Both the position numbers and the translations under genes were made by a program. The notes beneath the pieces were generated by a model. It worked only from the letters and a program-made list of their open reading frames with translations, made no database searches and was not told the origin of the DNA. Shown here one piece after another: positions 43,838 through 61,809 of a stretch of DNA of 64,000 bases. Position 1 is the stretch's first letter. Each line of letters starts with the position of its first letter. Source of the DNA: Fusobacterium perfoetens ATCC 29250. GTDB lineage: Bacteria; Fusobacteriota; Fusobacteriia; Fusobacteriales; Fusobacteriaceae. The stretch spans positions 416,296 to 480,295 of the forward strand of contig NZ_KK211416.1 in the NCBI RefSeq assembly GCF_000622245.1, written 5' to 3'.

Positions 43838-43896
43838 TTCAATTCCCTTTCTATAATAAAATTTTTCTAATAAATTATATCATAAAAAGAAAATAA

Positions 43897-43928
43897 AAAG
43901 AAGAGAAAGATTTTCCTTTCTCTTCTTT
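43897..43928 (-). terminator. Terminator of the D-amino-acid operon
   Basis: AAAGAAGAGAAAG (43897-43909) and CTTTCTCTTCTTT (43916-43928) form a 13-base stem. It lies 10 bases beyond the stop of the D-serine lyase gene on the minus strand. Confidence 0.75.
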
Positions 43929-43937
43929 AATTTTATA

Positions 43938-45272: not shown

Positions 45273-45294
45273 TTATAGTTCCTCCTAGACTATA

Positions 45295-46668: not shown

Positions 46669-46683
46669 TTTATTCCTCCTATT

Positions 46684-48279
46684 TTATTTTTCATAATGTC
46701 TAAGAACTCTTCCAGTATGTACTCCTGTCAATTTTTTATCTTTATATACTATTCCTCCATTTACTATAACATATTCAATTCCTTCTGTTAATTCATTTGA
46801 ATTAGTATATGTTGCTTTATCTTGAAGTTTTTCATAATTAAAAATAACTAAATCTGCATCATACCCTTCTTTTATTATTCCTTTTGTTTTTAAACCTAGA
46901 CGTTCTGCTGACATAGACGTCATTCTTCTTATTACTTCTTCTAAAGTCATGATATGATTTTCTTTATGATAATAACAAATTGCTCTAGGACAAGTTCCAT
47001 AAGCTCTAGGATGACCCTTTTCTCCCATTTCTCTAGTTAAACCATCACTTCCAATAACTGTATGTGGAAATTTAGCTATTTCAAATACATCCTCATCACA
47101 CATACTACTATAAACAGCACTTCCGATACCTTTATTTTCAACCATTATATCAAAAAATGTTTCAAAAGGATCTTTCCCTATTTCTTTTGAATATTCTGCT
47201 ATTGTTTTTCCTATTACACCACTTGTATTAGGACAAGAAGAAACAAATACTCCTTCCCATCCTCCTGCATTTAAATAATAATTATCATATTTAGAATTAG
47301 GATCTTCCATTTCTTTTTTTATTTTTTCTCTCATTTCTGGATTTTTAAATAATTCTGACATTTTTTCTACACCCTCATTAAAATGCCAAGGAGGTACACA
47401 AGCATTTAAATGTGTCATGTTTCTTGGATATGGGTATTGATCACATGTTACTTTTATTCCTTCATCTATAGCTTTTTGTATTATTGCTAATGTTTGTTTT
47501 TGTAATCCCCAATTTGATTTACCTAAAATTTTATGATGTGAAATAAATACAGGAACTCCTGCTCTTCTACCTATTTCAATAGTTTCTTCAACCGATTTTA
47601 CACTATCATATGATTCATTTCTCATATGCGAAGCATAAATTCCTCCATATGGTTTAATTACTTTTGCCAATTCTACTATCTCATCTGTTGTAGCATAACA
47701 ACATGGAGTATATATTAAACCTGTAGAAAATCCAGCTGCTCCATTTTCCATTGCTTCTTTCAAAAGAGATTTCATTTTTTCCATTTCTTCTTCTGTCGGT
47801 TGTCTATTTTCAAATCCCATCACAGCTATTCTCAATGTGCTATGACCTACATAACTTTTAATATTTGCTGTCTTAGGTACAGAATCCGCATATTCTAAAT
47901 AACGTTTATAACTTGTCCAGTTTACCATATCTTCTGGAAATTTTACTGCTCCTACTGATAATTGCCCTTGAACTAATTTTAAATTTTTTGGATTTATTGG
48001 TGCTGCTGAAAGACCACATTGTCCACCTATTTCTGTAGTTACTCCTTGAGAAGTTTTACATAATCTTGCACATTCATCACCTAAAATTAAATCTCCATGA
48101 GAATGAGCATCTATAAAACCAGGACTTATAAATAAATCTGTTCCATCTATAATCTCTTTTGCATCTTCATTTCCCAAAACATTTACTATTTTATCACCTA
48201 AAACACCAACATTTCCTTTAAATGCAGGTTTACCTGTTCCATCTACTATTGAAATATTTTTTATTAAAATATCAATCAT
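46684..48279 (-). CDS. N-acyl-D-amino-acid deacylase (D-aminoacylase)
   Basis: A 531-residue amidohydrolase. The start at 48279 follows AGGAGG; an in-frame ATG 57 bases upstream encodes an unlikely leader. Zinc-ligand motifs are present: FIDAHSHGD, the metal-bridging cysteine in IGGQCGLSAAPINP, GLIYTPCCYATTDEIVELA, YASHMRNESYDSVKSVEE, FISHHKILGKSNWG and VIGSDGL. The final beta-domain (KGIIKEGYDADLVIFNYEKL) is typical. The enzyme releases free D-amino acids from N-acyl forms such as cell-wall or diet-derived compounds. It is first of a three-gene operon with GntP-type permease and D-serine lyase. Confidence 0.92.
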   Translation of the reverse strand: MIDILIKNISIVDGTGKPAFKGNVGVLGDKIVNVLGNEDAKEIIDGTDLFISPGFIDAHSHGDLILGDECARLCKTSQGVTTEIGGQCGLSAAPINPKNLKLVQGQLSVGAVKFPEDMVNWTSYKRYLEYADSVPKTANIKSYVGHSTLRIAVMGFENRQPTEEEMEKMKSLLKEAMENGAAGFSTGLIYTPCCYATTDEIVELAKVIKPYGGIYASHMRNESYDSVKSVEETIEIGRRAGVPVFISHHKILGKSNWGLQKQTLAIIQKAIDEGIKVTCDQYPYPRNMTHLNACVPPWHFNEGVEKMSELFKNPEMREKIKKEMEDPNSKYDNYYLNAGGWEGVFVSSCPNTSGVIGKTIAEYSKEIGKDPFETFFDIMVENKGIGSAVYSSMCDEDVFEIAKFPHTVIGSDGLTREMGEKGHPRAYGTCPRAICYYHKENHIMTLEEVIRRMTSMSAERLGLKTKGIIKEGYDADLVIFNYEKLQDKATYTNSNELTEGIEYVIVNGGIVYKDKKLTGVHTGRVLRHYEK

Positions 48280-48467
48280 GTTTTTCCTCCTAACTTCTAG
48301 ATATAAAAATGTTAAAAATGATAAAATATAGTGCACTTATTTTAATTTATTAAAGTTTACCACAAAAAAATTGTAAAGTCAATCACAAAATTAATTTTTA
48401 ATTAATTTTTTTTATTTTAAATTAATTAATTTAAAATTAATTAATTTTTGAATATTTTTATTAAAAT

Positions 48468-48510: not shown

Positions 48511-49680
48511 TTATTTATTAAAATCTAAAACTAATTTTGTAAGTAAAGCAGCTCCTCTCCATAATACTCCTTCATTTGGATTATAATGACTATTATGTAA
48601 AGGCCATACTTTTTCTCCCTCTCCTGTTGTTCCTATCCAAGCAAAAGCTCCTGGAACTTCGTTTAAATAGAAAGAAAAATCTTCTCCTATCATAATAGGA
48701 TTTACCTTTATTAAAGCTTCATCTCCATAAAGTTCTTTTATTTTATCTGACATATATTTAGTCATTTTTTCTTCATTTAATACTGCCATATATCCTCTTT
48801 CATAATTTAATTCTCCTGTACATCCTGAAAGAAGACATACTCCATCTAATACTTCTTTTAATCTTTTTTCTGCTAAATCTCTCATCTCTGGAACAAAAGT
48901 TCTACAAGTTCCCTCTAAAACACATTCTCCAGCTACTATATTGTACCTACTTCCAGCTTGCATTTTTCCTATTGTTATTACCATAGACTTCATTGGGTCT
49001 GCATTTCTACTTACAATAGTTTGAACAGCTGTTACATATTGAGCTCCTGTTACTAAAGCATCTATTCCTTCATTTGGTTTTGCTGCATGACTTGGCTTTC
49101 CTTTTATAGTTACTATAAAATGGTCAGAAGCTGCCATTAATGGCCCCTCTTTTATTCCAACTTTTCCTAATGGTAAATCAGGCCATACATGCATACTAAA
49201 TATAGCGTCAACACCTTCTAAAGCTCCCTCTTTTATCATTCCTTTAGCTCCTCCATTAGGAGAAAGTTCTTCAGCTGGTTGGAAAATAAATCTTACTTTT
49301 CCTGAAAGCTCATCTTTTCTTTTAGATAAAAGATAAGCTGCTCCTAAAACCATAGTCATGTGATTATCATGACCACAAGCATGCATAACACCTTTATTTT
49401 TAGATTCAAAAGAAAGTCCTGTTTCTTCTTCTATTTGTAAAGCATCCATGTCAGCTCTCAGTGCTATAGTTTTTCCTTCTTTAGCTCCTATAAGTTCTGC
49501 TATTATTCCATTCCCATTTACATTTTTTCTTATATTAAAATTTCTAAGTTTTTCTAGTTCTCTTAAAATTATTTTGGAAGTTTTAAATTCTTTATTAGAA
49601 ATTTCTGGATTTTCATGTAATTCTCTTCTTATAGTTTGTAAATATTCTTGAATTTCTTTTGCTGAATTTATAATAGACAT
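48511..49680 (-). CDS. M20D amidohydrolase (N-acyl-L-amino acid / hippurate hydrolase-like)
   Basis: A 389-residue metallohydrolase of the IAA-amino acid hydrolase group. Key motifs are LRADMDALQIEEETG, the metal site MHACGHDNHMTM, FQPAEELSPNGGAKGMI with catalytic Glu-Glu, FSMHVWPDLPLG and KGKPSHAAKPNEG at the dimer domain. These enzymes remove acyl groups from L-amino acids or open related amides. It follows an omega-amidase-like gene after 14 bases in an operon with a permease, and complements the D-specific deacylase in the neighbouring operon. Confidence 0.9.
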   Translation of the reverse strand: MSIINSAKEIQEYLQTIRRELHENPEISNKEFKTSKIILRELEKLRNFNIRKNVNGNGIIAELIGAKEGKTIALRADMDALQIEEETGLSFESKNKGVMHACGHDNHMTMVLGAAYLLSKRKDELSGKVRFIFQPAEELSPNGGAKGMIKEGALEGVDAIFSMHVWPDLPLGKVGIKEGPLMAASDHFIVTIKGKPSHAAKPNEGIDALVTGAQYVTAVQTIVSRNADPMKSMVITIGKMQAGSRYNIVAGECVLEGTCRTFVPEMRDLAEKRLKEVLDGVCLLSGCTGELNYERGYMAVLNEEKMTKYMSDKIKELYGDEALIKVNPIMIGEDFSFYLNEVPGAFAWIGTTGEGEKVWPLHNSHYNPNEGVLWRGAALLTKLVLDFNK

Positions 49681-49694
49681 TTCATCCTCCTAAT

Positions 49695-50516
49695 CTATTT
49701 TAATAATCCTTCTTTTTCATAAAAATTAGGGTGTCTATCTCTAAACATATGAATAGTATTTCTTATTTCATCTATTATCGAAAGATCAATACTTCCATAA
49801 ATTATTTCTTCTCTTTCACCTCCTTCTGCTATTATATTTCCCCATGGATCTATAATTAGTGAGTGACCACAATAACTTCCCATTGGGCTTTCTCCTACTC
49901 TATTACAAGCAATTACAAATAATTGATTTTCTATTGCTCTTGCTGTTAAAAGTGTTTTCCAATGATTTACTCTTGGGTTAGGAAAATTCGAAGTAACTAT
50001 TATTGCCTGTGCACCTTTCAATGCATAAATTCTTGAAAGTTCACAAAATCTTATATCGTAACATATCATAAATCCAAATTTTCCTAATTCAGTTTCTAAA
50101 ATTTCTGCTTTATCACCAGGTTCAATCATAAAGTTTTCATCCATATCACTATATAAATGCATCTTACTGTAGTCAAATACTATTTCCCCTTTATTATTAA
50201 GTATAAAAGTAGTATTTCTTATTTTATTATCTCTTGAATGTCTAGTTGAAATAGAACCTCCTACCACCCAAACATTATATTCTTTAGCTAATTTTTTTAA
50301 AACACTTATTGAAGGCCCATTTTCTTCTTCACAAAAATTGTCCATATCATGATACATTTTATCAGAAAAACCATAACTCCAATCTTCTGGAATAACTATT
50401 ATATCTGGTTTTTTTTCATTATCCATTGCTTCTTTAAACATCTTTTTTATTTTTTCAAAATTATATTCTGGATCACAATACTTAATATCTGTTTGTAATA
50501 ATGCAAAATTTATCAT
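49695..50516 (-). CDS. Carbon-nitrogen hydrolase, omega-amidase/Nit2-like
   Basis: A 273-residue nitrilase-superfamily amidase with the triad Glu in IIVIPEDWSYGF, Lys in FDYSKMHLYSDMDE and Cys in GFMICYDIRFCELSR. The CYDIRF sequence is the form found in omega-amidases, which hydrolyse 2-oxoglutaramate or 2-oxosuccinamate. It is related to the hydrolase at 26798-27610 but not a duplicate: the active-site loops differ (CYDIEFPE there). It lies between permease and M20D genes, spaced 8 and 14 bases, so all three act on one substrate class. Confidence 0.87.
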   Translation of the reverse strand: MINFALLQTDIKYCDPEYNFEKIKKMFKEAMDNEKKPDIIVIPEDWSYGFSDKMYHDMDNFCEEENGPSISVLKKLAKEYNVWVVGGSISTRHSRDNKIRNTTFILNNKGEIVFDYSKMHLYSDMDENFMIEPGDKAEILETELGKFGFMICYDIRFCELSRIYALKGAQAIIVTSNFPNPRVNHWKTLLTARAIENQLFVIACNRVGESPMGSYCGHSLIIDPWGNIIAEGGEREEIIYGSIDLSIIDEIRNTIHMFRDRHPNFYEKEGLLK

Positions 50517-50524
50517 TTTTCCTC

Positions 50525-51832
50525 CTATACACTTCTAGCATAAATTATAGCTCTAATAATAACTACTATAAAGGTAATGATTGTTAAACACCATCCATTT
50601 TTTAACATAGCTTTAATATTTTTAGAATGTGCTAGTCCCATTGTTCCAACCATATCAACTGTTGGACTTACAAAGAATGTTACTTGACAAGCAACCAAAA
50701 CAATAAAAGACCATATTTCCATTTTTACTGACATTGCAGTTACTAATGGTAAAAATAATTCATGAGTTATTTGAGCTTGTGCTACTCCTGCACCAGAAAT
50801 TCCAAATACCCCTATTGCTGCAGCTATTACTAAAAATGCTGCAACTCCTCCTACATCTATTAAAGGTTTCATATAATTTGAAATAGCTTCAAAAGCCCCT
50901 GATTTTGCTACATAATTTAAAAATGGATCAAATAAAATAAACATAAAAAACATCCAATACATTTTTGAAGCTCCATCTACCATTTTCTTTATCGAATCTG
51001 TTAAGCTCATTCCTGCTGAAAGTCCTGTAAGTAAAGATGCTGTTATCATAACAACTATTGCATAAGAAGCCCCTGCTTTAGCTATAATACCATATATTAA
51101 CATCACTGCCATTGTTCCTATAAATGTGAAAGTTGCTCTATTTATTGTTTTAGTTGCTTTAAAATCATCTGCTTTGGTATAAGAATCATCAAATTTTTCT
51201 GTTCCTCTTGTTAACTTTTGAGTACGACAAGCTATAAAATAAGTTGATCCCCATATTATAATACCCATAGGTAATCCTGCATTTAATAAAAAACTAGAAT
51301 ATGTTAATCCTGTTAACCCCATTATAGTTGCAACTGGAGGAACAAATGGTCCTATTTGAAGTCCAGTAGCTGCTGCACCATGAAATATAACTCCTAAAGT
51401 ACTTGGTGTTAATCCTAAGCAAGAAACTATTGGAATTAATATAGGAGCTACAATAGCTACTGATCCTGATAATGTTCCTAACATAGAAACTAACAATGTA
51501 CAAGTTATCATTGAAATTAATATAGCTTGTTTTTCTGTTTTAATATTAGTTTTCTCTACAACAAAATATACAATATTTTGTGCAACTTTTGTATGTGTTA
51601 AAACTTCTCCTAATCCAGATCCTAAAACTATTATAAAACCTATCAAAGATAAAAATGAACTTAAGGAACCTTTTAATACTTCACCAAAACCAGTTATAGT
51701 TTCTCCTGTCATTACAGCTCCTAAAAGAACACAAATTAAAACAGAAAGGTTCATATCTTTTCCTTTTAACATTAAATAAATATATAAAAGTAAAGGTAAA
51801 AATCCTAAAATTGGTGGTAAATCAAAAATCAT
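50525..51832 (-). CDS. Ion-transporter-superfamily permease, substrate unknown
   Basis: A 435-residue inner-membrane protein with eleven or twelve helices. Segments such as LIGFIIVLGSGLGEVLTHTKVAQNIVYFV, TLLVSMLGTLSGSVAIVAPILIPIVSCLG and AAATGLQIGPFVPPVATIMGLTG, repeated in a weaker form in the second half (GISGAGVAQAQITHELFLPLVTAM), fit the ion transporter superfamily, close to GntP/NhaC/dicarboxylate carriers. It leads the operon of amidase and M20D amidohydrolase genes and probably imports their substrate. It is the first gene after a 27-base operator-like palindrome. Confidence 0.75.
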   Translation of the reverse strand: MIFDLPPILGFLPLLLYIYLMLKGKDMNLSVLICVLLGAVMTGETITGFGEVLKGSLSSFLSLIGFIIVLGSGLGEVLTHTKVAQNIVYFVVEKTNIKTEKQAILISMITCTLLVSMLGTLSGSVAIVAPILIPIVSCLGLTPSTLGVIFHGAAATGLQIGPFVPPVATIMGLTGLTYSSFLLNAGLPMGIIIWGSTYFIACRTQKLTRGTEKFDDSYTKADDFKATKTINRATFTFIGTMAVMLIYGIIAKAGASYAIVVMITASLLTGLSAGMSLTDSIKKMVDGASKMYWMFFMFILFDPFLNYVAKSGAFEAISNYMKPLIDVGGVAAFLVIAAAIGVFGISGAGVAQAQITHELFLPLVTAMSVKMEIWSFIVLVACQVTFFVSPTVDMVGTMGLAHSKNIKAMLKNGWCLTIITFIVVIIRAIIYARSV

Positions 51833-51866
51833 ATTTTCCTCCTAATCTTTTTTATTTTATTAACTT

Positions 51867-51893
51867 TATTAATATCCGTACGCTATATTAATA
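51867..51893. promoter_or_regulatory. Inverted-repeat operator between rpiR-type gene and permease operon
   Basis: TATTAATAT (51867-51875) and ATATTAATA (51885-51893) are perfect 9-base arms around CCGTACGCT, a rare GC-rich centre in this AT-rich sequence. The site lies 35 bases before the permease ATG and 10 bases beyond the stop of the RpiR-type regulator, the likely binding protein. Confidence 0.6.
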
Positions 51894-51902
51894 AAATAAT
51901 AA

Positions 51903-52757
51903 TCAAGAAATATAAATATCATTTTCTAATAGAATCTTATCATGCAACTCCATTCTTTTTAAAACTTTCTCTTTTTCTATTTTTCCTAAAGCAACAGTTA
52001 TACTATTTGCTAATGTCATCGCTCCAACAAAACTATAAGATATTTCACTATTTTTAGCTAATAAAACAACATCTGAATTTAATCCAATTGGAGCATTAAT
52101 ATTATCTGTAATAGAAACTATTTTACATTCTTTTTCTTTAAAAAATCTAGTTATATTATAAGTAAATTTAGTGTACCTTGCATAACTTATTGCAATTAAT
52201 TTATCTTCTTTTTTTACAGAAAGTAATTTTAGTGAAATATTTCCATTTTCATCTGATAATAAATAAACATTCTCCTTTATACCTTTCAATGTAAAATATA
52301 AATAAAAAGCTACACTATAAGAACTTCTTGAAGCACATATGTAAATATTTCCTTTTTTTTCTGATAAAATATCAATAGCTTTATTAAAATTATTATTTAA
52401 CTCTTCTGTGTAAGTATTTAATAGAATATTAGTATTTGAATCAATAATATTTTTTAAAATATTTTTTTCTTCATTTTCTTTAATAAAATTTTTAATTTCT
52501 TTCATAGGAGTGATATTTTTTTTTAATAAATCACTAAGATTTTTCTGGAATTCAAAAAAACCATCAAATTCAATTTCTTTTACAAATCTACTTATAGTTG
52601 CTATACTAATTCCTGTTTTTTCACTTAATTCTTTAATTGAAAAAAAACCAACAATATTTAAATTTTCTTTTATATAATTCGCTAAAATTTTTTGATTTTT
52701 AGAAAGTTTATCATAATGATTATCAATTAATTTTAAAACATTCTTATTTTTTTCCAT
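51903..52757 (-). CDS. RpiR/MurR family regulator with SIS domain
   Basis: A 284-residue regulator. The start at 52757 has a GGAGAT site; an in-frame ATG 12 bases earlier overlaps that site. Residues 1-80 form the RpiR helix-turn-helix domain (FFSIKELSEKTGISIATISRFVKEIEFDGFFEFQKNL), and residues 120-270 a SIS sugar-phosphate isomerase-like domain (GNIYICASRSSYSVAFYLYFTL, KLIAISYARYTKFTYNITRFFKEK, IVSITDN). SIS domains of this family bind phosphosugars, but many anaerobes use RpiR regulators for amino acid or peptide operons. It precedes the permease-amidase-M20D operon on the same strand. Confidence 0.87.
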   Translation of the reverse strand: MEKNKNVLKLIDNHYDKLSKNQKILANYIKENLNIVGFFSIKELSEKTGISIATISRFVKEIEFDGFFEFQKNLSDLLKKNITPMKEIKNFIKENEEKNILKNIIDSNTNILLNTYTEELNNNFNKAIDILSEKKGNIYICASRSSYSVAFYLYFTLKGIKENVYLLSDENGNISLKLLSVKKEDKLIAISYARYTKFTYNITRFFKEKECKIVSITDNINAPIGLNSDVVLLAKNSEISYSFVGAMTLANSITVALGKIEKEKVLKRMELHDKILLENDIYIS

Positions 52758-53144
52758 TTTTATCTCCATTAATTTAAATTTATATATTAATATTATACCA
52801 TTTGAAACTAAAAGTCAACACTTTTTAAAAAATTTTTTTCATTTTTTATTTTTTATGAAAATAATTTTATCAAAATTATTTTTATAAAAATATATTGAAT
52901 AACAAAAAAAGATTTTACCCAATCTCTTATTTAAATATTAATTTTTTCTATTTAAAGGATTTTACTTCTAAATTTCTATCAAAAAATAAAAAAACGAGAG
53001 ATTTTAATACTATAAACATCATCTCGAATATCTAAGATTTTGAGTACAATACAAAAACCTCTCATTAATATTTATTTTTACTTTTTAACTTTATGTGATA
53101 AATCTAAACTTTTATCATATAAAAATATTTTTATTAATTAATAA
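52758..53144. other. Intergenic region between rpiR-type and RidA genes
   Basis: No gene. It contains AT-rich sequence with the probable rpiR promoter (TATTAATATTATACC close to 52785-52800 on the minus strand) and the elongated hairpin described at 52992-53065. Confidence 0.4.
52992..53065 (-). terminator. Large-loop hairpin ending the sigma-54 operon
   Basis: On the minus strand ATGAGAGGTTTT (53065-53054) pairs with AAAATCTCTCGT (53005-52994) over 12 positions, two of them G-U; a run of seven T follows. The same positions would be mismatches on the plus strand, so the minus strand is the working one. The enclosed 48 bases hold a smaller CTC/GAG helix. This is longer than usual for a simple terminator. 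Confidence 0.55.
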
Positions 53145-53609
53145 CTACTTTAATTCTAAAATTAATTCTATCTCTACCGGAATGTTCCATGGTAATGAAC
53201 TTACTCCAATAGCAGATCTAGTTGGTAAACCTATTTCTTCTCCAAAAATTTCTTTCAATAATTTTGAAGCACCATCTATAACTTTAGGATGTTCATAAAA
53301 ATTCTCTGCAGAGGCTACAAATCCTAAAATTTTTACAAAACTTTTTATTTTATTTAAATCTCCTAGTTCATGATGAAGATTAGATAAAATGTTTATTAAA
53401 CAACGACGAGCAGCTTCTTGTCCTTCTTCTATAGTTAAATCTTTACCTAATTTTCCTACTATATTTTCATCTACTGAATTCCATGGAGCAGTTCCTGATA
53501 CATAAACTAATTTATTTCCAAATTCTTTTGTTATACTATAAATTCCTCCTTTTGGTGTTGGATCTAATAATTTTATATTTAATTTTTTTAAATTTTCATA
53601 TACATCCAT
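53145..53609 (-). CDS. RidA family protein
   Basis: A 154-residue intact member of the RidA/YjgF family, which hydrolyses reactive enamines such as 2-aminoacrylate produced by PLP enzymes. The ATG at 53609 is placed by the GGAGTG site; a GTG inside that site is rejected. The sequence has KLVYVSGTAPWNS, EEGQEAARRCLINILSNLHHELGDL, FVKILGFVASAENFYEHPKVIDGAS and PTRSAIGVSSLPWNIPVEIELILEL. The length and the SxLPxxxPVEIE ending place it in the longer RidA subgroup rather than the archetype; the usual active-site Arg is present in TRSAIG. It is last in the sigma-54-controlled operon. Confidence 0.88.
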   Translation of the reverse strand: MDVYENLKKLNIKLLDPTPKGGIYSITKEFGNKLVYVSGTAPWNSVDENIVGKLGKDLTIEEGQEAARRCLINILSNLHHELGDLNKIKSFVKILGFVASAENFYEHPKVIDGASKLLKEIFGEEIGLPTRSAIGVSSLPWNIPVEIELILELK

Positions 53610-53610
53610 T

Positions 53611-54534
53611 TTATTCACTCCTTAAATCATCTAAAAATATCTTTATTTCATTTTCTGAAAATTTTTTATTTATTAGTTTTTCTCTAAGAAAAATTAAATT
53701 CAATTTTTTTAAACTATCACTTGAGAAAATAATATCTTTTATAATTCCATTTGAAATTTTAAAAGATATTTTTAAAATACCTTCTTCATAAATAATTTCT
53801 TTTTCAAATATAAATTCAGGACAATTTTCTAAATTCCATTCTTCTTTTTTATATTCTCTATAATATTTTGGAAAAAAAATTTTTTTGTTATAATATTCTA
53901 TATTAACATCTTCAGAAATTTTTTTCTTGTATTTTGTTATTAAAATCTCTTTCAATTCTTTTATATTAATACTTTTATTAAAATCTTTTAAATTTCCTAC
54001 CCTACTTTTTATAGATGAAATTCCTTTAGAAATTAATTTAGAATATGAAGGTTTTAAAGAATTTACCAAATTATCTAAATCAACATTTACTAATAAAGTT
54101 CCATGTAAACACATTTTATTATTTATTTCATAAAATGCTTGACCTGATATTTTTTTATCTTTTATCAATATATCATTTCTTCCTGAAAAAAAACTATCTA
54201 TATGTTTTTCTTTTAAGGATTCTATTAAAATTTCTTGATATTTTTGACTAATTTCTAAATCAGTATTATTAATAAATGTATAATTTAAATTTCCTAAATC
54301 TTGGTAAACTGCTCCTCCTCCTGACTTTCTTCTTAATAATTCTATATTTTTTTCCTTAAGAAAATTTAAATTACATTCTAAATATGGATTTTGATTTCTT
54401 CCAATTATAACACATGGAGAATTTATCCAAAGATATAAAATTTTTTCATTTCCTTTCAAATTCTCTAATAATTCTTCCTCAAGAGCAAGATTATAATAAG
54501 GATCATTTTCTTCAGAAATAATTATTCTATTCAT
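53611..54534 (-). CDS. lplA: Lipoate-protein ligase A
   Basis: LplA attaches free lipoate to a lysine of lipoyl domains using ATP. The 307-residue protein contains NYNLALEE-like PYYNLALEEELLEN, NSPCVIIGRNQNPYLECN, LLRRKSGGGAVYQDLGNLNYTF (the RRxxGGGxVxHD-type loop), GRNDILIKDKKISGQAFYEINNKMCLHGTLLVN and a C-terminal accessory domain. The ATG at 54534 overlaps the preceding dehydrogenase stop by 8 bases, so translation is coupled; a TTG further upstream is less likely. Its natural target is the lipoyl domain fused to the dehydrogenase encoded immediately before it. Confidence 0.92.
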   Translation of the reverse strand: MNRIIISEENDPYYNLALEEELLENLKGNEKILYLWINSPCVIIGRNQNPYLECNLNFLKEKNIELLRRKSGGGAVYQDLGNLNYTFINNTDLEISQKYQEILIESLKEKHIDSFFSGRNDILIKDKKISGQAFYEINNKMCLHGTLLVNVDLDNLVNSLKPSYSKLISKGISSIKSRVGNLKDFNKSINIKELKEILITKYKKKISEDVNIEYYNKKIFFPKYYREYKKEEWNLENCPEFIFEKEIIYEEGILKISFKISNGIIKDIIFSSDSLKKLNLIFLREKLINKKFSENEIKIFLDDLRSE

Positions 54535-56188
54535 AATAATGTATAAATCCTTTTTCAAATCCTAAAGAAGATTCCCATATTGCTTCTGATAATGTTGGAT
54601 GAGGAAATACTAAATTTTTTATATCATTTATAGTTAATTTTTTCTTAATAGCCAAAGTTAATATAGAAATTAAAGATGAAGCTTCTGGTCCAACTATTGT
54701 TGCTCCTACTATTTCTTTACTTTCTTTATTGATTACAATTTTCACAAAACCTGTTGTTTCATTTTCAATTTTAGCCTTTCCATTTGCACTAAATGGAAAC
54801 TTACTTTCTTTTATTTCAAAAGATGGTTTCATATTTTTTGTTATTCCTACAGTTGCAATCTCTGGTACAGTAAAAATTACACTTGGTATCAGTAACTCTT
54901 CTGATTTTTCACAATTATTTAAAATTCTATTTATTACAGAAATTCCTTGTGAATATGCTGCATGAGCAAGTTGAACTTTACCATTAACATCTCCAATTGC
55001 ATATATTCCTTCTATATTTGTTTCAAAAAATTCATTTGTAATGATACCTTTTTTATTATATTTAATTCCTACTTCATCTAAATTCATCCTATCTAAAATA
55101 GGTTTTCTTCCTATAGAAACTAATACTTTATCTGCAACAGAAATATATTCTTTACCATTATTTCTATAAAAAACAACAGCTTTACCTTGTGTAGATTTTT
55201 CTATTCTTAATACTTCTGAAGAAGCTTTAATTACTACTTTTCTTTTTTCTAAAGAGGTTTTTATTATTTGCTTTGCTTCATCATCTATATTTGTTAAAAT
55301 AGTTTCCCCAAATTCTAACATTTCCACCTTAGCTCCTAAAGCTGAATATATACTAGCAAATTCCATCCCTATAACTCCTGCACCTACTATTAATATAGAA
55401 TCTGGCACTTGAAAGTTTTCTAAAACATCTTTACTATCTATACATACATCTTTATTAAACCACTCTGGTATAAAGCTTTCTGATCCTGTAGCAATTATAA
55501 TAGTAGATGTCTTTATAGTATAAAGATTTTTATTATCTTCCACTTGAACTTCTTTATTATTCAATATCTTTCCAAATCCTTCAAGTAAAGTTACTTGATT
55601 AGATTGTAATAAAAATCTTATTCCTTCTTCATTTTCTTTACAAATTTTTTCTTTTCTTTCTTTTATTTTATCTATATCAAAAGAAAAGCTATTTACTTCA
55701 ATTCCAAAAATATTACTTTCTTTTAATTTCGAATAAAAATTAGAGCTTTCAATAAATGTTTTTGTAGGAATACAACCATAATTAAGGCATGTTCCACCTA
55801 ATTTAGATTTTTCAATAAGAACAACTTTTTTCCCTTTTTTAGCAGCATAAATTGCTGTTACATATCCTCCAGGCCCTCCTCCTATTATTACTATATCTGC
55901 CTTTAACTCTTTTTTATTTTTTTCTACAATTGTTTCTATAGATTCTGAATCTTCTATTTCTTTTTCTAAATATTCAAATAAAATATCACCTGCTTTTATT
56001 TCATCTCCTTCATTAATAAGAATTTTAGTTATTTTTCCATTAACTTCTGAAATAACAGGTCTATTTCCTTTTCCAGTTTCTATATTTAATAATACTTGTC
56101 CTTGAGAAATTACAGCATTTTCCTCTACCTCTATTACTCCTACTTTTGCTGTCTTTCCTCCCATTATTAAACCCATTCTTATTTCCAA
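54527..56188 (-). CDS. Dihydrolipoamide dehydrogenase with fused N-terminal lipoyl domain, TTG start
   Basis: A 553-residue flavoenzyme. Residues 1-75 form a lipoyl domain (MEIRMGLIMGGKTAKVGVI, NIETGKGNRPV with lipoyl-lysine about Lys40, and ISEVNGKITKILINEGDEI); the usual ETDKA is ETGKG here. Residues 95-553 are the dehydrogenase: FAD site VIIGGGPGGYVTAIYAA, redox disulfide GGTCLNYGCIPTK, NAD site LIVGAGVIGMEFASIY and catalytic FPHPTLSEAIWE. The TTG at 56186-56188 is taken as start because AGAGGTG lies 6 bases before it and the lipoyl fold begins exactly there; a GTG inside that site and an ATG four codons later are alternatives. No 2-oxoacid dehydrogenase E1 or E2 genes are nearby. Confidence 0.9.
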   Translation of the reverse strand: MEIRMGLIMGGKTAKVGVIEVEENAVISQGQVLLNIETGKGNRPVISEVNGKITKILINEGDEIKAGDILFEYLEKEIEDSESIETIVEKNKKELKADIVIIGGGPGGYVTAIYAAKKGKKVVLIEKSKLGGTCLNYGCIPTKTFIESSNFYSKLKESNIFGIEVNSFSFDIDKIKERKEKICKENEEGIRFLLQSNQVTLLEGFGKILNNKEVQVEDNKNLYTIKTSTIIIATGSESFIPEWFNKDVCIDSKDVLENFQVPDSILIVGAGVIGMEFASIYSALGAKVEMLEFGETILTNIDDEAKQIIKTSLEKRKVVIKASSEVLRIEKSTQGKAVVFYRNNGKEYISVADKVLVSIGRKPILDRMNLDEVGIKYNKKGIITNEFFETNIEGIYAIGDVNGKVQLAHAAYSQGISVINRILNNCEKSEELLIPSVIFTVPEIATVGITKNMKPSFEIKESKFPFSANGKAKIENETTGFVKIVINKESKEIVGATIVGPEASSLISILTLAIKKKLTINDIKNLVFPHPTLSEAIWESSLGFEKGFIHYYE

Positions 56189-56209
56189 AATAATCACCTC
56201 TTTTTAATA

Positions 56210-56647
56210 TTATTCTAGAATAATTTCAGGTTTTTCTAATATAACATTATTTTTTAAAGAATCTCCTACTGGACACATTTTTTCTACTATTTTTACTAAT
56301 TCTTCAATTTGAAATTTAGAAGCTGAACTTTTTATATGAAATTTAAAAGAAATTTTTTGAAATCCTGTTCTGACATTTGGATTACTAAATCCATCACTAT
56401 CCATTTCTCCTACTGCTTCTATTTTTATATCTTCTAAAGGTATTCCATAAAAATCAGCAAATATAATAGCAGTTATAGTTTGACAGGCACTAAGACTACA
56501 TAAAGCTAATTCAACTGGATTCATTCCTTCATTATTTCCTCCTTGATTTTCAGGTTCATCCAAAATAATTGAAAAATCTCTTGCAGTAGCTTTAACCTTT
56601 AATCCTTCTATTTTTTCAGCAAAAGCTTTATAAGTTTTTATTGCCAT
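56210..56647 (-). CDS. OsmC/Ohr-like family protein with two reactive cysteines
   Basis: A 145-residue OsmC-fold protein. Starting at the ATG at 56647 (after GGAG), the family cysteines are Cys55 in CSLSACQTITAI and Cys125 in EKMCPVGDSLKNN, spaced as in OsmC and Ohr peroxidases; GMNPVELALCSLSAC is the classic helix. OsmC/Ohr enzymes reduce organic hydroperoxides with electrons supplied by lipoylated proteins and dihydrolipoamide dehydrogenase. The next gene in this operon encodes precisely such a dehydrogenase with its own lipoyl domain. Other OsmC members instead act as sulfur carriers, so the real substrate is open. Confidence 0.87.
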   Translation of the reverse strand: MAIKTYKAFAEKIEGLKVKATARDFSIILDEPENQGGNNEGMNPVELALCSLSACQTITAIIFADFYGIPLEDIKIEAVGEMDSDGFSNPNVRTGFQKISFKFHIKSSASKFQIEELVKIVEKMCPVGDSLKNNVILEKPEIILE

Positions 56648-56659
56648 TTTTCTCAACTC

Positions 56660-57055
56660 CTAACATCCTCTTGTTAATGCTAAAGGATCTGTATCTCCTT
56701 CTTTAGTAACTATACATAAAGAAACTAAATTTTCTGTTTCAGAAACATTCCAAAATGAATGATTTGCTTCTTCAGGAACATAAACCCATGTTCCTGGTTC
56801 TAAATCATATATTTCTTCTTCAATTTGAAATTTTCCTTTTCCTTGAATGCATACAAACCAATGCACCCAAGGATGATGATTTTTAGCTGCTTTTCCTCCA
56901 GGAACTAAAGTAAAACATCTCATAACATGAGTAGGCCAAAATCTTTCTGGTCCAAAAACAACTCTCTTTGTTCCTCCTAACATGTGCATTCCTGCATCAA
57001 TTTTAGGTAAATCTTCTATTTTTCCAGATAATACTACTTTTTCATTTTCTGCCAT
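56660..57055 (-). CDS. Cupin-domain protein
   Basis: A 131-residue single-domain cupin. The ATG at 57055 follows AAAGGAG; an in-frame ATG 33 bases upstream lies within the preceding gene. Cupin motif one is LVPGGKAAKNHHPWVHWFVCIQGKGKFQIE, giving possible metal ligands His-His, His and Glu or Gln; motif two is PGTWVYVPEEANHSFWNV. The chain ends ALTRGC with a cysteine two residues after arginine, and other cysteines are present near the metal site. It could be a small-molecule-binding protein or a thiol or enol oxidase/isomerase. It lies between the class V aminotransferase and OsmC genes in one operon. Confidence 0.8.
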   Translation of the reverse strand: MAENEKVVLSGKIEDLPKIDAGMHMLGGTKRVVFGPERFWPTHVMRCFTLVPGGKAAKNHHPWVHWFVCIQGKGKFQIEEEIYDLEPGTWVYVPEEANHSFWNVSETENLVSLCIVTKEGDTDPLALTRGC

Positions 57056-57057
57056 TT

Positions 57058-58218
57058 TTATTTCTCCTTTATCATCTTTTCTAAACATTCTAAGAAATTA
57101 TCTATATCCTTTTTGTTATTATAATAATGAATTCCTAATCTTATTCTATCTTTTCCTTGAACCTTAGCTCTCATTTTATTCTTTCTTAATTTAGCTTCTG
57201 TTAATTCTAAAGATTCAGGAACCCTAATTGATACTAATCCAGATCTATATTTTCTATCGTGAGGATATGCTATAGAAACTCCTGAAATATTTTCTATTTT
57301 TTCATATAAATAGTCTGTTAAATCTAATATATAATTCTCTATATCCTTTCCACCTAAATAAAGATATCTTTTTACAGTTTCATAAAGTCCATATAATCCC
57401 ACTGCTGGAAGACCTCCATTTTCAAAACGATATGCTCCTTTATTTACAATAAGATCAAATGGTTCTCCATTTATTCTATCTTCTACATTTGCCCATCCCA
57501 TTTCATTTTGTGATAATTTATTTATAAAATTTTTATCAATAAAAGCAAATCCTATTCCTTGAATACTTTGAAGCCACTTATAAGAAGATGTTGTTAAAAA
57601 ATCTATTTTCATATCTTTTACATTTAAATACATTGCTCCACATGCTTGAGTTGCGTCAACAGCAAAAGCTATTTCATTTTTTCTACAAAACTCTCCTATA
57701 GTTTTTAAATCATGTTTATATCCTGTTCCACTATCAACATAACAAACAGTAATTGCTTTTGTTTTTTCATCTACTAATTCAAAAATTTTTTCTGCTGGAA
57801 TTTGACCATTTATACTCTTTACAACTTTTACATTTATTCCTATTTTTTTCTCTAAATTTAGCCAAACATAAGTCATTGCTGGAAAAGCTGTATCATATAT
57901 GATAACATTATCACCTTTTTTTAATTCTAAACCATTAGTAAAAATATTAAATAATGTTGATGAGTTTTGTCCAAAAGCTATTTCTTCTTTTGACTCTGCC
58001 CCTATCATTTTTACTATATCTTCTCTAACATCATCTGCATATTCCCATTGAATATGATAATCATCGATATCAAGACTATGATCAACTCTAGTTTGTAAAT
58101 AAGAGCACATCATGTTACATGCATATTGAGGAATAAGCCCCATTGTTGCTGTATCTAAATATGTATAATTATTTAAAATTGGATAATTCCAACGTTCTCT
58201 TTCAAATTTATTTTCCAT
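57058..58218 (-). CDS. Class V PLP-dependent enzyme (aminotransferase/desulfurase/epimerase-like)
   Basis: A 386-residue fold type I PLP enzyme. The N-terminal NYTYLDTATMGLIPQYA, the QNSSTLFNIFTNGLELKKGD phosphate region, PLP-binding Asp in IAFAVDATQACGAM, PLP lysine in TTSSYKWLQSIQGIGF and GGLPAVGLYGLYETV are typical of the class V group that includes cysteine desulfurases, isopenicillin N epimerase and selenocysteine lyase. I do not see the flexible active-site cysteine loop of classical NifS/IscS desulfurases near residues 320-335, which argues for lyase, transaminase or epimerase activity. The gene is the second in the sigma-54 operon, 14 bases after the symporter. Confidence 0.85.
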   Translation of the reverse strand: MENKFERERWNYPILNNYTYLDTATMGLIPQYACNMMCSYLQTRVDHSLDIDDYHIQWEYADDVREDIVKMIGAESKEEIAFGQNSSTLFNIFTNGLELKKGDNVIIYDTAFPAMTYVWLNLEKKIGINVKVVKSINGQIPAEKIFELVDEKTKAITVCYVDSGTGYKHDLKTIGEFCRKNEIAFAVDATQACGAMYLNVKDMKIDFLTTSSYKWLQSIQGIGFAFIDKNFINKLSQNEMGWANVEDRINGEPFDLIVNKGAYRFENGGLPAVGLYGLYETVKRYLYLGGKDIENYILDLTDYLYEKIENISGVSIAYPHDRKYRSGLVSIRVPESLELTEAKLRKNKMRAKVQGKDRIRLGIHYYNNKKDIDNFLECLEKMIKEK

Positions 58219-58232
58219 TTTTTCTCCTTATT

Positions 58233-59486
58233 TTACTCTTTTGAAGTTAAATCTTTATGTATCCAATCTTTTCCTTCTACTAATTTTGAAACCATCATAG
58301 AAGCAATAGTGTCTCCAGTAGCATTTATACATGTTCCAGGTGGGTCTACTAAAAATCCTATTGTAGCTATAATTGGAAACGCTTCTGCAGGGAATCCATA
58401 AAGACTTACTATTAACATTTCACCTATTAATCCACCACCAGGAACTCCTGACATAACTACACCTGACATAACTGCTATAACCATTGCAGAAACGAATGTT
58501 CCTACTCCTGTAAAAGATTTTCCAAATATTCCAAATAAAAATGCTATTTTTAATAAAGTTGAAAATACTGTACCATCCATATGCATTGTTGCTCCAAGAG
58601 GTAAAACAATTTCTCTAATATCTTTAGGTACTCCTATATTTTTAGCAGCTTCTAAATTTACAGGTAAAGTAGCAACAGAACTTTGAGTTGCTATAGAAGT
58701 AGCAGTTGGAGGTAATATATATTTCCACATTCTTCTAACTCCTTCTTTTCCTGCAGACCAGTAAGCATATATAGGAAAGAATATAACAAAGTATAAGAAA
58801 CATGCTGGGTAATATATTAACATTGCATGTCCATATGCTCCTAATAAATTTGGTCCAAATTCTCCTACAAGATTTGCAAAATATGCTCCTAATCCTATTG
58901 GTGCATATAGCATAATAATATTAACTATTTTCATCATTACTTCTGCTAAATTATTTATAACTTTACCTAAAGGACTCTCTTTTCCTCCACAAACACTTAT
59001 ACAGAAACCAAACAATATAGAAAATAATATTAATGGTAACATATTTTGACGAGATAATAATCCAGAAAAATCATTTACTGTTAAAGCTTTAATAATAGCT
59101 GATGATAAACTTATTTTTTCAATAGAAGCTGCACTTTCTAAAGTAATATTTACACCTGCTGCTGGTGGAAATAAAGTAACTAACACTATTATTAAGACAC
59201 CTGCTATAATTCCTGTTATTGTAAATACTCCTATTAAGCTTGATAAAATTTTTCCTAAACGTTTCATATCTAACATATTTCCTATAGCACTAGCTATTGT
59301 TGAAAATACTAAAGGAACTATTGCTGTAAACATTAAATTTAAAAATATTTCACCAAAAGGTTTTAAAACAGTTGCTCTTTCTCCCATAACGATTCCTATT
59401 ATAGAACCTATTATAATTGAAGAAATTAATAATATAGGAAACTTATAACTTGCCCATACACTTTTTTTACTTTCTGTGTTACTCAT
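58233..59486 (-). CDS. Dicarboxylate/amino acid:cation symporter (DAACS, GltP-like)
   Basis: A 417-residue inner-membrane transporter of the glutamate/aspartate/dicarboxylate family. It contains AIVPLVFSTIASAIGNM, the serine-rich re-entrant loop ATQSSVATLPVNLEAAKNIGV, the GATMHMDGTVFSTLLKI signature and GVPGGGLIGEMLIVSLYG, followed by VDPPGTCINATGDTIASMMV. Family members carry glutamate, aspartate, serine/threonine, cystine or C4-dicarboxylates. It is first in the sigma-54 operon and so probably brings in the substrate for the PLP enzyme encoded next. Confidence 0.92.
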   Translation of the reverse strand: MSNTESKKSVWASYKFPILLISSIIIGSIIGIVMGERATVLKPFGEIFLNLMFTAIVPLVFSTIASAIGNMLDMKRLGKILSSLIGVFTITGIIAGVLIIVLVTLFPPAAGVNITLESAASIEKISLSSAIIKALTVNDFSGLLSRQNMLPLILFSILFGFCISVCGGKESPLGKVINNLAEVMMKIVNIIMLYAPIGLGAYFANLVGEFGPNLLGAYGHAMLIYYPACFLYFVIFFPIYAYWSAGKEGVRRMWKYILPPTATSIATQSSVATLPVNLEAAKNIGVPKDIREIVLPLGATMHMDGTVFSTLLKIAFLFGIFGKSFTGVGTFVSAMVIAVMSGVVMSGVPGGGLIGEMLIVSLYGFPAEAFPIIATIGFLVDPPGTCINATGDTIASMMVSKLVEGKDWIHKDLTSKE

Positions 59487-59566
59487 AATTAAATCCTCCT
59501 TGTTTTAGAATATATCTTCCGGATAAATATATTTTTTTATTTTTTTAGTACATATAAATTATACAA

Positions 59567-59581
59567 GCAAAACAAATGCCA
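59567..59581 (-). promoter_or_regulatory. Sigma-54 (-24/-12) promoter of the symporter operon
   Basis: On the minus strand the sequence reads TGGCAT (59581-59576), five bases TTGTT, then TTGC (59570-59567). The GG and GC doublets are separated by exactly ten bases, matching the RpoN consensus TGGCAC-N5-TTGC with one mismatch. It lies about 80 bases before the symporter ATG. A gene for a sigma-54 activator begins just upstream. Confidence 0.88.
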
Positions 59582-59745: not shown

Positions 59746-61809
59746 CTATTTTTCTTTTAAATATTCATTTAAAAAATTTTTCCCTTCCATAGTTATTGTA
59801 TTTCCTATCTTTCCTCTTTTTATTTCTATAAATTTTTTTAAATTTAATATTTCTAAAATTTTTCTTATTTCATAAAATGAAAGATTTAAGTGGCTATTTT
59901 TGGCCAATATATATATTTTTTCTCGACCAATAAATATTTTTTTCTCATTATATTCTTTTATTTTTTCTAAAACAAAAATTTCTTTATCATTTAGTTTTTC
60001 TTCCTCTATTCTCATAAAATTTTCTTTTTCTATATTTAATATTTTATTTTTTTCTTTAAAGAAATTTGATGGTAAATCTTCTATTTCTATAGTTTTTTTA
60101 TCCAAAAAGAAAAAATAATCTATATAATTCCTTAATTCCCTAATATTTCCTCTCCAATAATAAGAATACAATGCTTTTTTTACTTCTGAACTTAAATATA
60201 GTTTTTTCTTATTTTCTTCTGAAAAAGCTTCTATTAAAGGAAAAATATCCTCTGGTCTTTCACGCAAAGGAGGAATATTTATTTGTAAAGTACTTAGTCT
60301 ATAATATAAATCTTCCCTAAACTCTCCTCTTAACATCATTTCTTCCAAATCCCTGTTAGTTGCTGCTATTATTCTTACATCTATTGATATTAATTTAGTA
60401 TCCCCTAACCTCATAAATTCTTTTTCTTGAATAACTCTTAATAATTTTAATTGTAATAAAGGAGTCATTCCCTCTATTTCATCTAAAAATAATGTTCCGT
60501 TATGAGCAAATTCAAAGAATCCCATTTTTCCTCCTCTTTTTGCTCCTGTAAAAGCCCCATCGACATATCCAAATAATTCACTTTCTAATAAATTTTCAGG
60601 TAATGCACCACAGTTTAAAGCAATAAATGGAAAATTTTTTCTTTCAGAAGAATTATGTATAGACTGTGCAAATAACTCTTTTCCTGTTCCACTTTCTCCT
60701 GTTATTAAAATAGGAGATTTTGTTTTAGACATTTTTTCAGCCATTTTTTTTATATTAATCATTTTATTACTTATTCCTATGATATCTGAAAACGTATATT
60801 TCGCTACATGCCCTTTATTTAATAATTGATTACGAACTTTTTGCTGTTTTTCTTCTTCTTCTTTAAAATATTGTAAAATAGTTAAAAACCCCTTATTTTT
60901 TTGATTATAATTAATAGGATAGATACTTATAGTTATTAAATTATCATCAATTTTAATCAATTTTGAATCTACTTTTTTTAATCCATTTTTAAATTCATCA
61001 AAAGGTAAAAAAGGAAAAAGTTCTTCTGCTTTCTCTCCTATTTTTAAAGATAAATCTTGTTTTAAAATCCCTTCTGCTTTCTTATTCGAAATAAAAATCT
61101 TTCCCTCTTCATTAACACCTAAAACCCCAATTTCTAAAATATCAATAATATTTTGAAAACCTAATTCTAATTGTAAACTTCTTCCAAATAATTCATCAAA
61201 ATTATAACTATTTGATGTAATGGAAGATAAATGTTTTTTCCATCTTTGACTTTCCCAAAGATTATACATTTTTAATTTTAAAGCAATTTCAACTAATGTA
61301 CCGTTATCTACCTCACGTTGTCCTATATTAATTATATTTTCTATTCCTGAAGGAACAAACCTCTCTTCATCTGGAGTTATTGCATATTTTATATCTTTAT
61401 CTTTTATCTCTTTAAGATTTGCTCCTGGGTAAAACGGAATATAATTAAATTGGTTTAGACCTAATTGAATTAAACTAGTTATAGCCTCTTGTGCCATTTC
61501 TTTATTTAAATTTACTAATAAAACATTTTCTTTTTTGGGGATATTTTTTAGTTTTTCAAGATTTTTCTTAGAAAAGGTTACATGCAAAATTACAACAGGT
61601 ATTTCCTTAGCTATATCTTTATAAAAAGAAGGTAATTTTTCTAAGGCGTCTGTAGTTATACAAAATAAGTCAGCACTTACCTTTAAATTTTCTATATTAG
61701 CAACTATTTCCGAATAAACTTCTACCTTATTTTCTAATAAAAATTTTAAATGATTAGCATGAAAAGTTCCTGCTCTTTTATCACAAGTTATTACAACAAT
61801 TTTCTTCAT
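59746..61809 (-). CDS. Sigma-54-dependent transcriptional activator, atypical DNA-binding end
   Basis: A 687-residue enhancer-binding activator. Residues 1-190 are an unidentified sensor with a PrpR_N-like alternating fold (VVITCDKRAG, FCITTDALEKLPSFYKDIA, IPVVILHVTFS). A PAS-like domain follows (about 205-320, DILEIGVLGVNEEGKIFISNKKAEG). The AAA+ domain spans about 345-590: Walker A GESGTGKELFAQSIH, the sigma-54 contact loop GAFTGA in GYVDGAFTGAKRGG, Walker B GTLFLDEIEG and R-finger FREDLYYRL. The C-terminal end (SFYEIRKILEILNLKKFIEIKRGKIGN) looks like a winged helix rather than the usual Fis-type helix-turn-helix. It is read in the same direction as the operon it probably controls. Confidence 0.92.
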   Translation of the reverse strand: MKKIVVITCDKRAGTFHANHLKFLLENKVEVYSEIVANIENLKVSADLFCITTDALEKLPSFYKDIAKEIPVVILHVTFSKKNLEKLKNIPKKENVLLVNLNKEMAQEAITSLIQLGLNQFNYIPFYPGANLKEIKDKDIKYAITPDEERFVPSGIENIINIGQREVDNGTLVEIALKLKMYNLWESQRWKKHLSSITSNSYNFDELFGRSLQLELGFQNIIDILEIGVLGVNEEGKIFISNKKAEGILKQDLSLKIGEKAEELFPFLPFDEFKNGLKKVDSKLIKIDDNLITISIYPINYNQKNKGFLTILQYFKEEEEKQQKVRNQLLNKGHVAKYTFSDIIGISNKMINIKKMAEKMSKTKSPILITGESGTGKELFAQSIHNSSERKNFPFIALNCGALPENLLESELFGYVDGAFTGAKRGGKMGFFEFAHNGTLFLDEIEGMTPLLQLKLLRVIQEKEFMRLGDTKLISIDVRIIAATNRDLEEMMLRGEFREDLYYRLSTLQINIPPLRERPEDIFPLIEAFSEENKKKLYLSSEVKKALYSYYWRGNIRELRNYIDYFFFLDKKTIEIEDLPSNFFKEKNKILNIEKENFMRIEEEKLNDKEIFVLEKIKEYNEKKIFIGREKIYILAKNSHLNLSFYEIRKILEILNLKKFIEIKRGKIGNTITMEGKNFLNEYLKEK

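Follow-up and report, generated by a model that had tools for sequence, protein, structure and literature searches.

A predicted sigma-54-controlled operon of Fusobacterium perfoetens places an OsmC-lipoyl dehydrogenase-lipoate ligase cassette among genes for amino-acid use

Introduction

Lipoate is usually taught as the swinging arm of the 2-oxoacid dehydrogenases and of glycine cleavage. What, then, is the use of a lipoate-protein ligase in an operon whose outer genes encode an amino-acid symporter and a predicted imine/enamine deaminase? The question is raised by Fusobacterium perfoetens ATCC 29250 (source genome of 2.10 Mb in 25 contigs, 99.97% complete and 0.44% contaminated), in a 64-kb stretch of which, analysed at its full length and called the window here, seven genes form one set on the minus strand (53145-59486). 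They encode a symporter, a pyridoxal phosphate (PLP) enzyme, a cupin, an OsmC-family protein, a dihydrolipoyl dehydrogenase (LPD) with a lipoyl domain of its own, a lipoate-protein ligase (LplA) and a Rid-family protein. Judged from gene order, the operon combines two modules that recur elsewhere, namely OsmC-LPD-LplA and a PLP enzyme with a DAACS carrier and/or a Rid protein. The account that is held, on balance, to be probable is that the amino-acid module works together with a lipoyl-OsmC chain, which would clear a thiol-reactive by-product of the cleavage. A first-pass annotation of the locus had taken the seven genes for one dedicated catabolic or detoxifying module matching no described pathway; as a single conserved unit this was not borne out, and what stands is a lipoyl redox cassette, recurrent elsewhere, set into an operon for amino-acid catabolism.

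Operon layout and predicted sigma-54 control

All seven open reading frames are present at the positions listed below, and all seven gene families were confirmed by Pfam above cut-off. The intergenic gaps are, in the order of transcription, 14, -31, 3, 12, -32 and -8 bases.

59746-61809, minus strand: sigma-54-dependent AAA+ activator, upstream of the operon (Sigma54_activat E=1.2e-68, residues 343-510)
59566-59581, minus strand: predicted -24/-12 (sigma-54) promoter, TGGCATTTGTTTTGCT, an exact match to TGGCAYNNNNNTTGCW
58233-59486, minus strand: gene 1, DAACS/SDF-family amino-acid symporter (Pfam SDF E=4.7e-99)
57058-58218, minus strand: gene 2, fold-type I, class V PLP enzyme of the NifS/C-DES fold (Pfam Aminotran_5)
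56660-57088, minus strand: gene 3, small Cupin_2 protein with a TM1459-like metal site (Pfam Cupin_2, TM1459 alignment)
56210-56656, minus strand: gene 4, OsmC-family protein (Pfam OsmC E=2.7e-20)
54527-56197, minus strand: gene 5, LPD with an N-terminal lipoyl domain (Pyr_redox_2, Pyr_redox_dim and Biotin_lipoyl; TIGR01350 over cut-off)
53611-54558, minus strand: gene 6, lipoate-protein ligase A (LplA) with a C-terminal domain (LplA-B_cat and Lip_prot_lig_C; TIGR00545 over cut-off)
53145-53618, minus strand: gene 7, predicted Rid-family imine/enamine deaminase (Pfam Ribonuc_L-PSP/YjgF)

The predicted promoter lies about 80 bases upstream of the first ATG of the operon and is the sole exact match to TGGCAYNNNNNTTGCW within the window; under a first-order Markov model, 0.025 exact matches would be expected by chance per 64 kb on both strands. 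The genome has one rpoN, a frame of 414 amino acids (Sigma54_DBD E=7.6e-42). The three elements of a sigma-54 operon, namely the -24/-12 promoter, the activator and rpoN, are hence all present in the sequence. The earlier view of seven tightly packed genes behind one such promoter was confirmed in its frames, families, gaps and exact site, and sigma-54 control is predicted accordingly from sequence. The activator is likely the regulator of the seven-gene operon. Its closest NCBIfam model is PrdR, with a score under that model's cut-off, and its N-terminal sensor region (residues 1-340) gave no Pfam match. The repeats 5' of the promoter are AT-rich, and no convincing activator site was found among them.

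The OsmC-LPD-LplA cassette

A cassette was defined as OsmC, an LPD with an N-terminal lipoyl domain and LplA, adjacent and in that order, and genes 4 to 6 of the operon have this arrangement. The same gene order was found in six Clostridia genomes (L095, L154, L155, L166, L171 and L172), in which the LPDs have about 556-641 residues and likewise carry an N-terminal lipoyl domain. A MarR regulator of one family adjoins most of the Clostridia cassettes; this gene is missing from the window operon, where the sigma-54 activator is found in its stead. Several variants of the arrangement were seen. The cassette LPD of L155 (10398-12323) has two lipoyl domains and lies beside two OsmC genes; in the split form of L097, OsmC is followed by an LPD that has no lipoyl domain and by a GcvH-like protein, with a divergent LplA in addition; and plasmid pART37 of Paenibacillus sp. 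37 carries OsmC-LPD-MarR with no LplA adjoining. In Acetoanaerobium noterae (L188:4089-7587) the order is MarR-AhpD-LPD(lipoyl)-LplA, an AhpD domain over the curated cut-off occupying the slot of OsmC. In a 226-genome order sample, OsmC was present at E <= 1e-25 in 21 genomes, six of which have the fused or split cassette; the genome samples are not independent draws and these counts are descriptive only.

The window OsmC is 43-55% identical to the cassette OsmCs, and the alignment with them showed that both redox Cys residues are kept (SAC and MCPVGD motifs). It scored under the cut-off of every curated subfamily, namely Ohr (TIGR03561), SACOL1771 (TIGR03563) and OsmC_like_Se (NF041052). Selenocysteine was considered for an in-frame TGA in an OsmC homologue of L153 (around 1500) and rejected, as the TGA lies near the N-terminus and not at a catalytic Cys; the start of this frame is probably degenerate.

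For Ohr of Corynebacterium glutamicum, Xylella and M. smegmatis, it has been reported that regeneration depends mostly on lipoylated proteins, either LpdA or Lpd/SucB, and that OsmC and AhpC draw on the same donors (PMC4486171). Both the fused gene order and the replacement of OsmC by AhpD next to this LPD would be expected of a lipoyl arm that donates electrons to a small thiol peroxidase. The first-pass annotation had let OsmC handle a peroxide or sulfur intermediate together with the lipoyl-dehydrogenase, and comparative genomics together with the published biochemistry of relatives points to such an electron flow from the lipoyl-LPD to OsmC. No description of the OsmC-LPD-LplA cassette was found in the open-access papers searched, which are an incomplete collection.

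Descent of the LPD

In a maximum-likelihood tree of 17 LPDs, it was found that the window LPD falls within a clade of cassette proteins only, the AhpD-linked LPD included (ultrafast bootstrap 100, SH-aLRT 99). The lipoyl-fused E3 components of Mycoplasmopsis, C. difficile, Cupriavidus and Skermanella are on the other side of the tree, as is the split-form LPD of L097; the C. difficile protein is of the acetoin type and adjoins E1 and E2 genes. The window LPD has a long branch and a deviating composition, and its exact sister is unsure. It keeps the redox Cys pair (CxxxxC) as GGTCLNYGCIPTK and has ETGKGNR as lipoyl-lysine motif, this motif being ET[GKA]KGN in the cassettes with OsmC, ESSKGS in the one with AhpD and ETDK, ETEK or ESDK in the E3s named above. 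The clade placement and the lipoyl motif indicate that the window's OsmC-LPD-LplA module is a descendant of this cassette.

Lipoate users in the genome

The Biotin_lipoyl model gave six matches in the source genome, the operon LPD among them. The other five were assigned by eye, with sequence and adjoining genes as the guide: one is an AccB-like biotin carrier and one the carrier end of a pyruvate/oxaloacetate carboxylase-type protein; a third is a biotin carrier whose gene adjoins a decarboxylase beta-subunit-like one; the last two are a carrier-like protein next to accC and an RnfC-like protein. The GCV_H model gave a marginal match alone in this genome, on one of these biotin carriers, and model searches of the genome detected neither a 2-oxoacid dehydrogenase E2 nor a glycine-cleavage H protein. 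As far as the models and a draft of 99.97% completeness allow, the lipoyl domain of the operon LPD seems to be the sole lipoate acceptor. The LplA/B catalytic model matched the operon LplA and one other gene, BirA. Since the LPD would be the only protein left to lipoylate, the operon LplA most likely exists for it, and the presence of LplA without a LipB-type gene suggests that lipoate is scavenged. It was also observed that the source genome encodes, before accC, a second biotin-carrier-like protein in which no MKM biotin motif is obvious (L040:1240-1725).

PLP enzyme, transporter and Rid

In the PLP enzyme, K214 is invariant in the alignment and corresponds to the PLP lysine of the class V fold. 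Structure prediction by AlphaFold2 gave a model with a mean pLDDT of 90.5; its best VIA-align matches are desulfurases and C-DES, with tied Z of 44-46, and comparison with the C-DES chain 1n31 by Foldseek gave a TM of 0.88 by both lengths. The loop with the catalytic Cys of desulfurases was absent from the profile alignment with SufS, the region RLGIHYYNN being without Cys, and a cysteine desulfurase of the usual type was rejected on the ground of this missing persulfide-forming loop. The enzyme is predicted to be an alpha,beta-eliminating lyase. Elimination is favoured, by inference only, because the Rid protein keeps the imine-deaminase Arg and because Rid genes are known to cluster with PLP enzymes that form 2-aminoacrylate (PMC4433059).

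Relatives of the PLP enzyme lie directly before a DAACS carrier at five loci (L002, L047 of Brachyspira pilosicoli, L051, L055 and L058) and within reach of a Rid gene at six (L032, L042, L044, L047, L048 and L051). Two of these loci were found to hold larger sets (L044:3506-11822 and L042:1073-9083), in which the class V PLP and Rid genes occur with aldolase, MBL-fold, Gfo/Idh/MocA and M20 genes; both sets look like amino sugar acid catabolism.

The symporter was aligned with TcyP, SstT, GltP and DctA of E. coli, and it was observed that a Gly (VDPPGT) replaces the Arg that GltP and TcyP have in transmembrane helix 8 (TM8). The DAACS family linked to PLP enzymes has Tyr or Phe at this position. 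Animal ASCT carriers offer an analogy for a neutral substrate when the TM8 Arg is replaced, and this suggests that the substrate of the window DAACS is neutral. The idea that the carrier feeds the PLP enzyme was upheld, with a DAACS of the neutral-amino-acid type. Cystine import of the TcyP type, which was also considered, is weakened by the same change.

The equivalents of Tyr17, Arg105 and Glu120 of E. coli RidA are all kept in the alignment of the Rid protein. An Arg of the Arg105 type marks the Rid subfamilies that hydrolyse imines (PMC4433059), and from the published biochemistry of relatives the window Rid would be expected to do the same. The role that the first-pass annotation gave to RidA, the handling of enamine by-products, is consistent with the retention of these residues.

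Cupin

Three of the four metal-site His residues of TM1459 are kept in the cupin, as seen in the alignment with TM1459. Its relatives in Clostridia reach no more than 39% identity, and this over only part of the protein. At two Clostridia loci (L107:8284-10078 and L108:8221-9210), OsmC lies beside a distant cupin, with a MarR gene also present in L107; these cupins are too distant to assign a role, and a recurrent link of cupin and OsmC across the two loci is possible. The cupin of the operon may act on the substrate or, as the first-pass annotation had proposed, on a product of the pathway.

Conservation of the seven-gene set

It had been expected that the seven families would be kept together in relatives, and this failed on comparison. 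Among the 98 Fusobacteriota genomes searched, only the source genome had the cupin, and the same was true of OsmC. A close orthologue of the PLP enzyme was absent from 60 relatives searched, none being above 29% identity. In a scan of 84,980 species genomes by an exact-match pattern, which closer orthologues could have escaped, the relatives of the PLP enzyme found were at most 37% identical; besides Rid and DAACS, no family of the operon was present at the loci so obtained. The full seven-family set was at none of the homologue loci examined. In Clostridia, where OsmC was searched in samples of 391, 297 and 226 genomes, the neighbourhoods contained the OsmC-LPD-LplA part and never the transporter-PLP-Rid part. 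Single-protein and alignment scans of viral contigs gave no match.

Because the cupin and OsmC occur in this Fusobacteriota genome only and the PLP enzyme has no close orthologue in the 60 relatives, the operon was probably acquired from outside Fusobacteriota or widely lost there. Its codon use and GC are like those of the rest of the window, so that the composition gives no sign of recent transfer.

Proposed mechanism and alternatives

In the composite account, the symporter would import a neutral amino acid, probably one that contains sulfur (or selenium) or reacts with thiols in another way, and the PLP enzyme would cleave the beta-substituent by alpha,beta-elimination. The 2-aminoacrylate-type enamine/imine would be hydrolysed by Rid to pyruvate and ammonia. 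LplA would load the lipoyl domain of the LPD with scavenged lipoate, and electrons would pass from NADH to the LPD, the lipoyl arm and finally OsmC. This last protein would reduce a thiol-reactive by-product, for which a persulfide, a mixed disulfide and an organic hydroperoxide are each possible. The reactive product on the nitrogen side would thus be handled by Rid and the one on the sulfur side by the lipoyl-OsmC chain, and sigma-54 with the adjacent activator would switch the operon on when the substrate is present. The chain is given its place in this scheme because the substrate probably contains sulfur or selenium and its cleavage would release a thiol-reactive product. The elimination chemistry, the sulfur-containing substrate and the role of the cupin are parts that we only infer. 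A more far-reaching form makes lipoate a cofactor dedicated to the dissimilatory breakdown of sulfur amino acids: the persulfide or disulfide-bound product would be reduced to thiol or sulfide, and the organism would have no other use for lipoate. This form is regarded as improbable, though not strongly so.

Several findings weigh against the composite account. The nearest relative of the PLP enzyme is 37% identical, so that the reaction is uncertain. Relatives of this enzyme in L042, L044 and L045 lie beside sugar-acid genes; the substrate class therefore varies within the PLP family, and the substrate need not contain sulfur. TcyP, the cystine carrier of the DAACS family, keeps the Arg (DMGRT) that is lost in the window DAACS, which speaks against cystine as the substrate. 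The window DAACS shares no more than 23-27% identity with the DAACS family linked to PLP enzymes, so that the pairing of PLP enzyme and DAACS in the window may have arisen independently, by convergence. Most close OsmC homologues are solitary, so that OsmC needs no cassette.

In a rival reading, OsmC-LPD-LplA is a general cassette for defence against organic hydroperoxides and electrophiles, co-inherited with an unrelated amino-acid operon or captured downstream of it, with no part in catabolism. Elsewhere, the cassette does stand alone with MarR regulators, in L095 it is near pirin- and nitroreductase-like genes (identified by eye), and AhpD takes the place of OsmC in one genome. In the window, however, the PLP/cupin genes stand on one side of it and Rid on the other, with overlapping frames, one sigma-54 promoter and no MarR gene. 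This position behind one sigma-54 site would put the cassette under substrate control and is the argument for a catabolic role; a pure defence function, given the MarR regulators elsewhere, is considered a serious though less likely alternative.

The identity of the PLP reaction leaves room for other readings. The enzyme could be a racemase, epimerase or transaminase (isopenicillin N epimerase-like) acting on a D- or otherwise unusual amino acid, with no sulfur chemistry. The missing Cys loop agrees with this, as do the many reactions catalysed by Aminotran_5 enzymes, the D-serine ammonia-lyase and amidohydrolase with a GntP-type carrier 5 kb away, and the KDPG-aldolase-like and sugar-acid genes beside PLP relatives. 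But Rid, with Arg105 and Glu120 kept and recurring with the PLP family, points to the release of an enamine or imine, and the thiol module would be left without a clear role; such a reading is judged unlikely. A true cysteine desulfurase that passes a protein persulfide to OsmC, for sulfur delivery in iron-sulfur or thiocofactor synthesis, would suit the observation that desulfurases of the SufS type are the best matches in both sequence and fold. It is very improbable nevertheless, given that the persulfide-forming loop is absent, the RLGIHYYNN region is free of Cys and scaffold genes are not in the operon.

Neighbouring genes

Two further sets on the minus strand were noted in the window. 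The set directly downstream of the operon (48511-52769) comprises an M20 amidohydrolase, a nitrilase-family amidase, a DcuC-like carrier and an RpiR regulator, and may be a further catabolic set for amino-acid or peptide derivatives. The other (43277-48336) looks like one for the use of N-acyl-D-amino acids, with the following genes.

43277-43837, minus strand: PuuR-like regulator
43938-45272, minus strand: D-serine ammonia-lyase
45295-46668, minus strand: GntP/DsdX-like carrier
46684-48336, minus strand: amidohydrolase

Significance and comparison with known systems

What sets the use of lipoate here apart is a genome without detectable carriers of the 2-oxoacid dehydrogenase or glycine-cleavage type, a ligase of its own and a gene order that links it with a family of thiol peroxidases for which lipoyl proteins are known electron donors. 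If the composite account is true, the cassette would be a portable and genetically minimal lipoyl redox system of three proteins. It would explain why lipoate scavenging is kept by anaerobes without 2-oxoacid dehydrogenase and glycine-cleavage complexes, and through its place in a sigma-54 operon for amino-acid use, lipoate would be connected with the handling of thiols or persulfides in catabolism.

Each of the protein families is already known, as is lipoyl-dependent Ohr biochemistry. In the mycobacterial AhpD-AhpC-SucB-Lpd peroxidase chain, a lipoyl protein with LPD feeds a thiol peroxidase. The AhpD-family protein in the OsmC slot of Acetoanaerobium recalls this chain; the window differs from it in having OsmC for AhpD/AhpC and a fused lipoyl-LPD for E2 and E3. 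The PLP enzyme shares its fold and the missing desulfurase Cys loop with C-DES, the cystine C-S lyase of Synechocystis (PDB 1elq, 1n31), whereas the identity is about 19% and the carrier of the operon is without the Arg of the cystine carrier TcyP. Sigma-54 regulons for amino acids have been described in Clostridiales, such as CdsR-cdsB for cysteine and MdeR-mdeA for methionine, among others (PMC6615313). There too, an activator lies beside the -24/-12 promoter of amino-acid-use genes, with sulfur amino acids among the substrates; the gene content differs, and terms for OsmC or lipoyl are absent from the main text of that paper.

The lipoyl-dependent Ohr/OsmC system of Xylella, Mycobacterium smegmatis and Corynebacterium glutamicum has the same families and the same proposed path from NADH through Lpd/LpdA and lipoyl to Ohr/OsmC (PMC4486171). 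The donors there are LpdA or the E3/E2 of 2-oxoacid dehydrogenases, whereas the window unites OsmC with a dedicated LPD and the ligase for it in one cassette, in a genome where no other lipoate acceptor was detected. The nearest described system of operon-specific lipoylation is that of LplA2/GcvH-L, in an operon with the SirTM sirtuin and a macrodomain protein (Rack et al. 2015, PMC4518038). Both have their own ligase, a carrier outside central metabolism and a link to oxidative stress. The window operon is unlike it in being without sirtuin, macrodomain, OYE and luciferase-like monooxygenase, in the presence of OsmC and in the fusion of the lipoyl carrier to the LPD.

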